From assembly GCA_014879945.1 (NCBI GenBank), contig JACSRE010000229.1, forward strand, positions 1-34,940: DNA of 34,940 nucleotides, read 5' to 3'. The notes under the pieces are model-generated. The model saw nothing but the letters and a program-made list of their open reading frames with translations. It was not told the DNA's origin and did no database searches. A program made the position numbers and the translations under genes. Shown piece after piece: positions 7,335-34,940 of this stretch (the first letter of the stretch is position 1; every line of letters begins with the position of its first letter). The stretch comes from Myxococcus sp. Lineage in GTDB: Bacteria > Myxococcota > Myxococcia > Myxococcales > Myxococcaceae.

Positions 7335-7487
7335 CGTGATTCCTGATGCTTCGGCACGAGTGTTGGGCGGGGCCGGTGGTGCACCTCTACCGACCTGTCG
7401 AGGCTGACGACCGATGGATTGTGGTGGCCCAGCAGAGCCCTGTCTGTCGTCCGGTCGGTGGCCATGGCTACGTCGTGGCCGACTGAC

Positions 7488-8018
7488 ATGCCCAGACTCG
7501 CCGTTGGCCTTGCCGCTGCGCTGCTCTCCTCCTGCGACTGCGCCCCTGTCGGCTCAGGGGGCGCTGACGCTGGCTTTGACGCGGGCATCGACCAGGGCGC
7601 AGCAGACGCTGCGGTCGAGCTGCTCGACGGCGGCCTGCTCATCTACGGCGCCGGCTGCGTCAGCCCAGATCAGAACAAGGTCATCTTCGTCGTCGATTCC
7701 AGAGACCCGCAGTGGTGCGCGTTCATCAGCATGCGCCGCTGGGACGATGGCTTCCCCGTCAAGTTCCCCCAGTTCGACGCTCCCGAGGACTTCAAGGTCG
7801 ACGACGCCCGGTTCGGCGTGTGCCGCGACCTCGAGCTGCCGACGACGCTCGAGCCCGATTCAATCAAGCTCGATGACCTGACGGGGAAGCTCCGCTTTCG
7901 AGTCGTCTTCGAGGGGCGCCCCCGCAGCTACGACTTCGACGGCGGGTTGAGGATGGGGCCCTACGTCTTCCAGGCGCAGGTGTTCGCTGGCCTCGTGCGC
8001 GACTGCAAAGGCAACTGA
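7488..8018 (+). CDS. Putative lipoprotein, unknown function
   Basis: A 176-residue protein. The start at ATG 7488 is chosen because MPRLAVGLAAALLSSC forms a lipoprotein signal with Cys16 as the modified residue; an upstream in-frame ATG at 7419 would bury the signal. The linker after the Cys is Gly/Asp/Ala-rich (GGADAGFDAG), as in other lipoproteins here. The folded part has cysteines in AGCVSPDQNK, QWCAFISM, GVCRDLEL and RDCKGN, possibly two disulfides. No family is recognised. It is transcribed toward the ClpB/RF2 fusion gene, 102 bases downstream. Confidence 0.7.
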   Translation: MPRLAVGLAAALLSSCDCAPVGSGGADAGFDAGIDQGAADAAVELLDGGLLIYGAGCVSPDQNKVIFVVDSRDPQWCAFISMRRWDDGFPVKFPQFDAPEDFKVDDARFGVCRDLELPTTLEPDSIKLDDLTGKLRFRVVFEGRPRSYDFDGGLRMGPYVFQAQVFAGLVRDCKGN

Positions 8019-8120: not shown

Positions 8121-10946
8121 ATGGCAAAGAAGAAGGTACGCACCGACGGGCCTGACGGCTGGTTGGCGCTGGTGGAGCGCGACCTCACGGCGCTCGGCAG
8201 AGAAGGCAAGCTCCCCACGGGGCACGGGCTCGACCAGGCCGCCAATGAGCTGGCCACGCTGCTGACCCGCGGAGGCAAGGCGCCCCTGCTCGCGGGCGAC
8301 GCGGGCGTCGGGAAGTCGGCCATCGTGCAGGAGCTGGCGCGCCGCATCGTGCTGGGCAACGCGCCCGAGGCCTTGAAGGGCGTGCGCGTGCTCGAGGTGC
8401 CCGCCGCCGGCATCTTCGCGCGCACCAACACGCCCAAGGGCGCCGCCGAGCTGCTCGAGGACTTCCTCGACCACGCCGCCGAGCAGCCCACCATCGTCTT
8501 CCTCCGCGACGTCGGGCTGGTGCAGGGCAGCTCGCTGGTGCCGGTGCTGATCCGCGCGCTGCGCGCCGCGCGCCTTCGCTTCATCTTCGAGTCCGACCTG
8601 CGCCGCGCCCACGAGCTGCTGCGCACCGACGAGACGCTCAGTGAGCGGCTCCACCTGGTGGTGGTGAACGAGCCCACCCACGAGCGCGCCCGGTGGATTC
8701 TGGGGCGCATGGCCGAGGAGCTCGAGCTCGAGGCCGGCCTGCCCATCGACCCGTCTGCGTGCGACGTGGCGCTGCGGCTGTCGGTGAAGTTCCTGCTCGC
8801 GCAGCGGCTGCCGCGCAAGGCCATCGAGCTCTTGAAAGAGACCGTCACCGAAGCCGCCGGCGCCTCGCGAGAGCGCGTCACCGGTGAAGACGTGCTGGCG
8901 CGCTTCTGCAGCTCCACGCGGCTGCCGCGCTTCATGGCGGACGACAACGTGCCGCTCGACCTCGACGAGGTGGGCCGCTTCTTCGGCACGCGCCTGCTGG
9001 GGCAGACCGACGCGCTCCAGGCCGTCTTGCGGAGCGTCGCGCTGCTCAAGGCCGGCCTCAACGACCCGCGCCGCCCGCTCGGCGTCTTCCTCTTCGCGGG
9101 CCCCACCGGCGTCGGCAAGACGCACCTGGCGAAGCTGCTCGCCGAGTACCTCTTCGGCAGCCACGAGCGCCTCGTGCGCATCAACATGGCCGACTACCCG
9201 GACCACGGCGACGAGAACGTGCTGTTCGGCAACCCGTGGGCGCAGACGCTCGACTCCAAGCGCGGTGAGCTGACCCGGCTGCTCGACGGGCGCGTCTTCA
9301 CCGTGCTGCTGCTCGACGAGTTCGAGAAGGCGCACGCCAAGTGCCACGACCGCTTCCTGCAGCTCTTCGACGAGGGCCAGTTCATCAACGCCGCCGGCGA
9401 GACGGTGCCGTGCAACAACACCCTCATCGTCTGCACCTCGAACGTCGGCGCCGAGGTGTACCGCGAGGGCGCCATCGGCTTCGCGTCGTCGCGCTCCGAC
9501 GACGAGCTCCTCGAAGAGATCGACCGGCGCATCGCCAGCTCGTTCCGCCCCGAGTTCCTCAACCGCTTCGACGCCATCTGCCACTTCCGCCCGCTGGGGA
9601 AGGTCGAGATTCGGCGCATCGCCCAGCGCGAGGTCGGCCGGGTGCTGGAGCGTGAAGGCATTCGGGCGCGGCAGCTCGACGTCGAGGTGGCGCCCGAGGT
9701 GGTGGAGCTGCTGGTCGAGCGCGGCTACTCGCCCATTCACGGCGCGCGCTACCTGCAGCGCGAGATCGAGAAGTCCCTCACCGCGGCGCTGGCCGTCGAG
9801 ATCGCGCGCCAGTCGTTGCCGCCCGCAACGCCGGTGAAGGTGGTGAGCCACAAGGGCCGGGTGCACGCCATCGCCGAGCCGAAGGTGGCGCGCGAGCGTG
9901 AGGCGACCGCGCAGGCCACCCTGCCGGGCGCGGGCGCGGCGCTGTCGAAGAAGCGGCTCGACCAGAAGGCCCTCGTCGCCGAGGCCGAGTCGCTGGTGGG
10001 CCGCGCGGCGGGCGTCGGTCAGGCCGCCAAGCGCTCGCACCTCGAGGTGAAGCGGCGCGAGCTGCTGGGCATCTCGCAGGCCCCCGGCTTCTGGGATGAC
10101 GGAGAGCGCGCCGCCGCCGTGCTGCGCACCTACCGCGCCATCGACGCGCAGCTCGCCGAGCTCGACCGGCTGCGCGAGCAGTGTCAGGTCGCCCGCCGCC
10201 GAGCGCGTGACGCGAAGGGCGAGATGCAGCTGGCCACCGCGGTGCGGGCCGTCGAGGAGGCGGCGCGTGAGGTGCAGCTGGCCGAGGCGCGGGTGGCGTC
10301 AGGCGCGGCCGGCAACGTCGACGACGCGTGGCTCGAGCTGGCGGCGGCGGTGGAGGGCGAGGCGGGCGAGGGCTGGGTGCGCGAGCTCGTCACCATGTAC
10401 GTCGGCTGGGCGCAGCGGCGCAGCTACGAGGTGAAGGTGCTGGCCGAGAGCGACGACCCGCGCCGCGCGGTGCTCCACCTGCACGGGCCCGGAGTGTTCG
10501 GCTTCCTCTCGGGTGAGCGGGGGCTCCACCGGCGCATCGACGACGACTCGCGCGTGGCCGCGTACGTGCGGCTGTACCGGCTCTCGCAGGCGCCGGTCGA
10601 GGTGGCCGAGTCGATGACGCTGACGGCGCGCGAGGTGAAGCGCCGCGCCGGCCGGTACGTGGAGAAGGTTGGCGCCGAGGCGTCGGTGCGTGACGAGCGC
10701 ACCGGGCGCGAGGTGTCGCTGTCGGGCTCGGCGCCGGTGGAGGAGCTCAAGGCGCTGACGCTCGCGGTGCTCGACGGACAGGCCGAGGGCGGCACCGAGG
10801 TTCGGCGCTACTTCATGGGGCGCGGCGCCAGGGTCGAAGACCCGCGCACGGGTGAGGCGTCGCCGAGAATGAAGGACGTGCTGAAGGGTGAGATCGACCT
10901 CTTCATCGCCGCGTGGATGACGAGGCCGCCGGTCGACGCGAGCTGA
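8121..10946 (+). CDS. ClpB-like double AAA+ ATPase fused to a degenerate RF2-like module
   Basis: A 941-residue fusion. Residues 20-270 resemble the first AAA+ domain of ClpA/ClpB (Walker A GDAGVGKS 59-66) but the Walker B is IVFLRDV, so the usual Asp-Glu pair is altered. Residues 285-585 form a complete second AAA+ domain: GPTGVGKT (327-334), LLLDEFEKAH (396-405), NRFD arginine finger (481-484), GAR sensor 2 (541-543). The Clp N-domain, ClpB middle coiled coil and the pore-loop aromatic motifs (KYRGEF, GYVG) are not seen. Residues about 620-940 match release factor 2 in order: PGFWDDGERA, the WVRELVTMYVGWAQRR helix, GVFGFLSGERGLHR, and the end VEDPRTGEASPRMKDVLKGEIDLFIAAWM. The peptidyl-hydrolysis GGQ reads GRY (844-846) and the SPF stop-codon loop is lost. 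It probably binds ribosomes or ribosome-like partners rather than terminating translation. AGGAGGG precedes the ATG. Confidence 0.9.
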   Translation: MAKKKVRTDGPDGWLALVERDLTALGREGKLPTGHGLDQAANELATLLTRGGKAPLLAGDAGVGKSAIVQELARRIVLGNAPEALKGVRVLEVPAAGIFARTNTPKGAAELLEDFLDHAAEQPTIVFLRDVGLVQGSSLVPVLIRALRAARLRFIFESDLRRAHELLRTDETLSERLHLVVVNEPTHERARWILGRMAEELELEAGLPIDPSACDVALRLSVKFLLAQRLPRKAIELLKETVTEAAGASRERVTGEDVLARFCSSTRLPRFMADDNVPLDLDEVGRFFGTRLLGQTDALQAVLRSVALLKAGLNDPRRPLGVFLFAGPTGVGKTHLAKLLAEYLFGSHERLVRINMADYPDHGDENVLFGNPWAQTLDSKRGELTRLLDGRVFTVLLLDEFEKAHAKCHDRFLQLFDEGQFINAAGETVPCNNTLIVCTSNVGAEVYREGAIGFASSRSDDELLEEIDRRIASSFRPEFLNRFDAICHFRPLGKVEIRRIAQREVGRVLEREGIRARQLDVEVAPEVVELLVERGYSPIHGARYLQREIEKSLTAALAVEIARQSLPPATPVKVVSHKGRVHAIAEPKVAREREATAQATLPGAGAALSKKRLDQKALVAEAESLVGRAAGVGQAAKRSHLEVKRRELLGISQAPGFWDDGERAAAVLRTYRAIDAQLAELDRLREQCQVARRRARDAKGEMQLATAVRAVEEAAREVQLAEARVASGAAGNVDDAWLELAAAVEGEAGEGWVRELVTMYVGWAQRRSYEVKVLAESDDPRRAVLHLHGPGVFGFLSGERGLHRRIDDDSRVAAYVRLYRLSQAPVEVAESMTLTAREVKRRAGRYVEKVGAEASVRDERTGREVSLSGSAPVEELKALTLAVLDGQAEGGTEVRRYFMGRGARVEDPRTGEASPRMKDVLKGEIDLFIAAWMTRPPVDAS

Positions 10947-28233: not shown

Positions 28234-28479
28234 GTTCTGCCGGGCCCTCTACAACAACGCCCGCTCGTCAGGGCTGTGGCAGGTGCGCGAGGGACAGGCC
28301 CGCTGCGCTCTCGAGGAGGGCCAGCGGCCGACTCCAGGACCTCGCCGACGTCGAGGCGCTGGAAAAACTGTTGGGCCGGCAGCTGATCGCCCGGAAAATT
28401 CCGCCCAAGTTGCAGTGCCTTCCGTTTCAACAAAGGAGGCGCTACGAGCGGCCCGCGCTTGTCGCGCGCGGGGGTGGAA

Positions 28480-34940
<6,461 letters not shown>

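Follow-up and report, generated by a model that had tools for sequence, protein, structure and literature searches.

In the window analysed here, a contig of 34,940 bases, taken over its whole length, from a genome of 7.7 Mb, one gene encodes a double-AAA+ Clp/Hsp100 core that carries a complete module derived from release factor 2 (RF2) at its C-terminus. Because the GGQ motif and all stop-codon-reading motifs have been lost from this module, the fusion protein is unable to end translation. Our working hypothesis, to which we assign a probability of roughly 40%, is that the protein is an AAA+ unfoldase, probably acting with ClpP, that is addressed to ribosomes or other translation complexes by its dead RF2 module. 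More tentatively, we suggest that it represents an undescribed type of ribosome-targeted AAA+ protease, in which a ClpP-docking unfoldase and a dead release factor serving as a built-in ribosome adaptor would be united in one chain.

The open reading frame starts with an ATG that is preceded by a purine-rich stretch; searches found neither a sigma-70-like promoter for the gene nor RNA features in the window. A small ORF on the same strand (7419-8018), whose later part is rich in Asp and Gly and has a lipoprotein-like look, ends about 100 bases upstream. Three Pfam domains were matched over their curated cut-offs, i.e. AAA_2 (residues 318-486, 1.5e-33), ClpB_D2-small (492-574, 1e-11), and PCRF (648-804, 6e-15). 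Among the NCBIfam models, the whole protein matched ClpB (5e-88), ClpA (6e-80), ClpV, and then prfB (2e-21), all far under the equivalog cut-offs (296 vs 1232 bits for ClpB and 269 vs 993 bits for ClpA). Similarly, phmmer against the PDB matched ClpB, ClpC, and ClpA over two domains and, separately, RF2. The PADLOC matches of the protein reflect merely common AAA+ sequence and were set aside. The coordinates of the features are given in Table 1.

Table 1 Features of the fusion gene and its product (window positions, residues of the protein)
Feature	Residues	Positions	Strand	Remarks
Whole fusion gene		8121..10946	+	941 aa
D1 (first AAA+ domain)	17-245	8169..8855	+	Walker A kept; Walker B Glu and KYRG-type pore loop lost
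D1 Walker A, GDAGVGKS	59-66	8295..8318	+	K65 invariant
D1 degenerate Walker B, TIVFLRDV	124-131	8490..8513	+	D130 invariant; next Glu lost in every member
D2 (second AAA+ domain)	318-490	9072..9590	+	ATPase motifs intact
D2 Walker A, GPTGVGKT	327-334	9099..9122	+	
D2 pore loop	369-384	9225..9272	+	GYVG replaced; invariant Trp373
D2 Walker B, VLLLDE	395-400	9303..9320	+	
IGF tripeptide at ClpP-docking loop position (putative)	452-454	9474..9482	+	[ILMV]-G-F, 46/46 members
D2 small domain	491-575	9591..9845	+	Sensor 2 GAR, 541-543
Junction between motor and RF2 module	576-632	9846..10016	+	Basic, weakly conserved
RF2 domain 1-like helical bundle with FWDD helix	633-735	10017..10325	+	
RF2 domain 2-like region	736-835	10326..10625	+	GGTE, SPF, HTSF lost
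RF2 domain 3-like region	836-890	10626..10790	+	GRY at 10650-10658 for GGQ; long helix shortened
RF2 domain 4-like C-terminal segment	891-933	10791..10919	+	RRY, EDPRTG, KGEIDLFI; most conserved part of the module

To characterize the motor, we aligned the fusion protein with Clp proteins from its own genome and from E. coli. In this alignment D2 retains LLLDE, the sensor 1 TSN, the arginine-finger region FRxEFLNR, and GAR, and across the family the D2 Walker A and Walker B motifs, sensor 1, the arginine-finger region, and sensor 2 are invariant. Thus, with two AAA+ domains and a D2 small domain in addition to intact D2 ATPase motifs, the core belongs to the Clp/Hsp100 proteins. In D1, RD replaces the DE of a hydrolysis-competent Walker B motif and the KYRG pore loop is absent. 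The alignment revealed neither an N-domain nor a coiled-coil middle domain. These results agree with the first-pass annotation of this DNA, which had described an intact second AAA+ domain, an altered Walker B motif in the first, and the absence of the ClpB middle domain and the N-domain. Its further statement that the pore-loop aromatics are missing holds for the canonical Tyr, which is gone from both rings, but not for the D2 loop as a whole: here FGxxWxxx stands in place of GAPPGYVG, and W373, which sits two residues before the usual Tyr position, is invariant in all 46 members. The D2 pore loop has a pLDDT below 50 in the predicted model, and its modelled shape therefore carries no weight here.

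The parentage of the core is less clear-cut. D2 is 38% identical to a ClpC-type protein and 37% identical to ClpB, and sequence identity therefore leaves the choice between a ClpB and a ClpC parent unsettled; a D2 tree, in which a long branch (1.77) sets the family apart from the other Clps, is compatible with either origin. In fold comparisons with the full model, ClpC-ClpP complexes ranked first in Foldseek, and VIA-align 2 gave ClpC a Z of 33.0 (567 residues, rmsd 7.1) with Hsp104 and ClpA tied at Z 32-33.

A more specific pointer comes from the loop with which Clp unfoldases contact ClpP. The classical ClpP-docking tripeptide is [LIV]-G-[FL]. At this position the first residue is I, L or V in 36 of the 46 distinct members and M in the other 10, whose M-G-F falls outside the classical pattern, while G453 and F454 are invariant within an otherwise variable loop. 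The IGF of the fusion protein aligns with IGL in E. coli ClpA, VGF in the ClpA of the same genome, and IGF in a ClpC-type protein (L071), and the tripeptide is absent from both ClpBs in the alignment. When residues 414-575 were compared with PDB sequences, the best match was 5ofo, a ClpB into which the ClpA loop has been engineered, at 87.0 bits vs 83.1 for the parent ClpB and with IGF lying over IGL without a gap. A ClpB bearing the ClpA loop (the BAP variant) is described as binding ClpP (PMC4023160), and the docking loop is a recognised ClpP contact (PMC9035409). Because D2 is as near to the ClpC-type protein as to ClpB and carries a ClpA/ClpC-type tripeptide, a protease partner is at least as likely as a stand-alone remodelling function, and the sequence points to a core that would be a ClpP-partner unfoldase rather than a plain ClpB-like remodeller. 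On both grounds, the earlier label 'ClpB-like' calls for revision. We detected one ClpP match in the genome; the M. xanthus DK1622 genome encodes two ClpPs along with eight copies of clpA/B/C (PMC11423568). A second protein of the window genome, a 645-aa ClpB-like protein with its N-terminal region truncated or lost to a contig end (L003:2-1936; G000:C177), has MGF at the docking-loop position but is not known to have a partner.

In comparison with characterized unfoldases, the fusion protein resembles ClpC and ClpA in having two AAA+ domains, active-type D2 motifs, and a hydrophobic-G-F sequence at the docking loop in the absence of the ClpB middle domain, and differs from them by the missing N-domain, the broken D1 Walker B motif, the loss of the pore-loop Tyr, and the C-terminal RF2 module. 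It resembles ClpB and Hsp104 in the sequence of D1 and D2 (31-37% identity to ClpB), and ClpB gives it its highest NCBIfam score, but it lacks their middle and N-domains and has the ClpP tripeptide that ClpB does not have.

The RF2 ancestry of the C-terminal third is evident at the level of sequence as well as fold. Analysed alone, this third had prfB as its sole NCBIfam match (9e-23). A profile of 20 family sequences from residue 601 onward aligned with a profile of 14 RF2 sequences at a probability of 99.8 and an E of 1e-27 over 287 columns, which run from the FWDD helix through to the final segment, as the first-pass annotation had proposed; likewise, in a PDB profile search with the module, RF2 was the best match (E 5e-23) and several RF2 matches spanned nearly its full length. 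The homology thus extends across the whole of RF2. Because a fold search with the whole model returned the motor alone, we folded and searched the module separately, using family sequences without templates or any RF2 sequence. The resulting model (pLDDT 77, pTM 0.73) has low confidence in its last 40 residues, even though these are the best conserved of the module. In Foldseek, all 45 matches with an E below 0.001 were RF1 or RF2, and E. coli RF2 was the closest fold (Z 13.8, 290 residues, rmsd 6.3). The module accordingly scores as PCRF/RF2, and the first-pass annotation's first ground for refutation falls away.

What the module has kept and what it has lost differ sharply. Retained are the FWDD helix, G-x-HR, R-x-Y, E-D-P-R-T-G, and the final G-E-x-D-x-FI. 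The equivalent of GGQ is G844-R845-Y846, the substitution noted earlier, and only its first G is invariant across the family; the SPF loop, reported lost at first reading, is shortened, GGTE and HTSF are gone as well, and about 17-20 residues are missing from the long helix of domain 3 and the switch-loop region. The motifs that are missing here are those with which RF2 recognises stop codons and hydrolyses the ester. The earlier view that the protein does not terminate translation therefore stands. The genome has its own RF2 gene, with the frameshift site AGGGGGTCTCTTTGAC, and its own RF1 gene and a 134-aa ArfB-like ORF, all outside the fusion gene, so that termination is independent of the fusion protein.

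From these data we infer a hexamer with ATPase activity that would bind both ClpP and ribosomes and act on proteins found there. The protein would have dispensed with the N-terminal adaptor-binding domain and gained a dead copy of RF2 at the opposite end. D1 would probably bind nucleotide for ring assembly without hydrolysing it, D2 would be the motor of the unfoldase, and the IGF loop would dock the ring on ClpP. The dead RF2 module, reading no stop codon and cleaving no peptidyl-tRNA, would function as an address tag that brings the ring to ribosomes or other translation complexes, e.g. stalled ones, or to a partner of RF2, and proteins at the addressed complexes would be unfolded and handed to ClpP. 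Several features speak against this scheme. Because the aromatics that typically thread substrate have gone from D1 and are displaced in D2, threading into ClpP may be weak or absent, and the six C-terminal modules of each ring might lie near the ClpP face and could clash with ClpP. Because all RF2 motifs that touch mRNA are lost, ribosome binding may be lost too. In addition, the M-G-F of ten members and of the 645-aa ClpB-like protein, the non-basic module, and the lack of a conserved operon with clpP or rescue genes count against it.

That an AAA+ machine docks on the ribosome, as first suggested for this gene, remains plausible, and docking might also occur without a protease. The module would then occupy the A site or its vicinity, and D2 would use ATP hydrolysis to pull apart or rescue stalled ribosomes. 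The retention of the entire RF2 fold around a dead catalytic centre fits such a remodeller; Dom34/Pelota, a catalytically dead release-factor relative of eukaryotes and archaea, rescues ribosomes (PMC6514570); and the altered pore loops speak against ordinary threading. This explanation, however, gives the invariant docking tripeptide no role, and with the decoding loops lost, the ribosome contact that it requires is itself hypothetical. We consider it somewhat unlikely.

We also regard as unlikely that the module is a structural or substrate-recruiting Hsp100 domain with no connection to the ribosome, acting for instance in oligomerisation or in recognition of a single client. For such a domain, the loss of every mRNA-contacting and catalytic motif would be expected; the module, moreover, evolves faster than the motor and is not basic (pI 5-9 across the family), and in the window genus the genes adjoining the fusion are not translation genes. 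Yet a mere scaffold need not keep an entire fold, and here all four RF2 domains are kept and the EDPRTG segment is conserved nearly as well as the motor.

A role for the dead module as a translation silencer, which would vie with RF2 or tRNA for the A site and help to keep ribosomes idle during starvation or in spores while the ring regulates its release, appears improbable. The hosts of the gene are myxobacteria, i.e. bacteria that undergo development on starvation, as this idea would have it. It has been suggested that dead release-factor relatives act alongside hibernation factors to block ribosomes (PMC6514570), but hibernation genes were linked to the fusion gene in none of the neighbourhoods examined.

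Of the 195 genomes of the phylum, 84 gave whole-gene matches (E below 1e-90). With the module alone (E below 1e-28) there were 87, comprising 86 of the 96 genomes of the family Myxococcaceae, a count that takes in one remnant and two contig-end fragments, and one from another family of the order. The fusion is present as a single copy in about 85 of the 96 sampled Myxococcaceae genomes and in one genome of a sister family. In a pattern-based scan of 84,980 species, fused loci occurred, among the matches listed, only in myxobacteria by relationship; beyond these, again among the matches listed, identity falls to that of ordinary Clp (35%) or RF2 (25%). Values of dN/dS (Nei-Gojobori, seven pairs) were mostly 0.02-0.2 in both motor and module, lowest in D2 and higher in the domain equivalent to that bearing GGQ, documenting that the gene is under purifying selection. 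Several Myxococcaceae with smaller genomes lack the gene, and it is therefore not essential for all.

This distribution refutes for the family the idea that the gene is a pseudogene in decay or an artefact of fusion, frameshift or assembly, which retains hardly any probability: broken copies do exist in two genomes, but dozens of genomes, representing many genera and assemblies, carry the fusion intact and at low dN/dS, and the early concern about a single-genome artefact falls away. One of the broken copies, in G128 (L117, around 9770), is interrupted by a one-base frame break within a GC run, exactly where motor and RF2 module meet, in a genome that is otherwise complete. A programmed frameshift, as in RF2, was considered and rejected, as this is a single frame break in a single genome, most simply an error or one mutation. 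The other, in G105 (L125:8138-9284, between xerC and hslV), appeared to be a stand-alone release-factor-like gene beside hslVU, and we asked if the module served a second protease there; it proved to be a remnant from which the motor is deleted and whose N-terminus, junction, and RF2 part each lie in a different frame. The split in G134 is a contig break, and the matches in G140 and G072 are contig-end fragments.

Searches of 5.39 million open-access papers found no description of an AAA+ protein fused to a release factor. Such proteins are likely to be annotated as ClpA, ClpB or ClpC, which the present finding corrects, and earlier tallies of Clp homologues may have included the gene and overlooked its RF2 half. 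A 2019 catalogue of bacterial release factors of the RF2 fold lists RF1, RF2, ArfB, and PrfH, of which the latter two keep the catalytic glutamine; it describes no AAA+ fusion for PrfH or ArfB and does not mention myxobacteria (PMC6514570). The module matches RF2 (PrfB) in its four domains, by profile and by predicted fold, and in the FWDD helix, RxY, D-x-RTG, and the final G-E/D-x-D-x-FI, and departs from it in lacking GGQ, SPF, GGTE, and HTSF, in its shortened domain 3 helix and switch loop, and in being fused to a motor. Like PrfH/RFH and ArfB, it is a same-fold paralogue outside normal termination; unlike them, it has lost the catalytic glutamine. A release-factor relative and an AAA+ ATPase also meet in the Vms1-Cdc48 pair of eukaryotic ribosome quality control (PMC6514570). 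This is an analogy only, as Vms1 belongs to an unrelated release-factor superfamily and Vms1 and Cdc48 are two separate proteins.

The fusion protein is a variant of the Clp unfoldases, and there is a real chance that it is something more. If our hypothesis is correct, release-factor-like recognition and an AAA+ motor would be joined in a single bacterial chain. A dead RF2 paralogue that is joined to an unfoldase and that selection has maintained across a bacterial family would add a new entry to the release-factor catalogue. The fusion offers a specific and testable link between translation and AAA+ proteolysis, in that two point mutations would separate ClpP docking from the remaining functions.

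The surroundings of the gene vary. Its neighbours differ by genus without forming a conserved operon, and neither clpP nor rescue genes share a conserved operon with it. In Myxococcus and relatives (L053, L055, L057, L065, L117, L121), as well as in Hyalangium (L067), Archangium (L048), and G061 (L146), the fusion gene lies about 0.7-1.5 kb downstream of a long array of 14-26 tRNA genes and a gene for a 180-aa HNH endonuclease (e.g. L060:6304-6843) on the same strand, and Corallococcus retains the HNH gene and one or two tRNAs beside the fusion. In contrast, the window genus has its HNH gene on a different contig without tRNAs, and in G155 it lies inside a 25-tRNA array unlinked to the fusion; we therefore treat the arrangement as synteny of a clade. 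Elsewhere in the window, a 2160-aa open frame with RHS repeats and DUF6531 (28459-34938, plus strand) runs off the end. Finally, in a record titled Comamonas sp. KCTC 72670 (BNCN01000002.1; L058), the fusion gene is of the Myxococcus type and has the tRNA/HNH genes as neighbours; the organism label of this record looks wrong.
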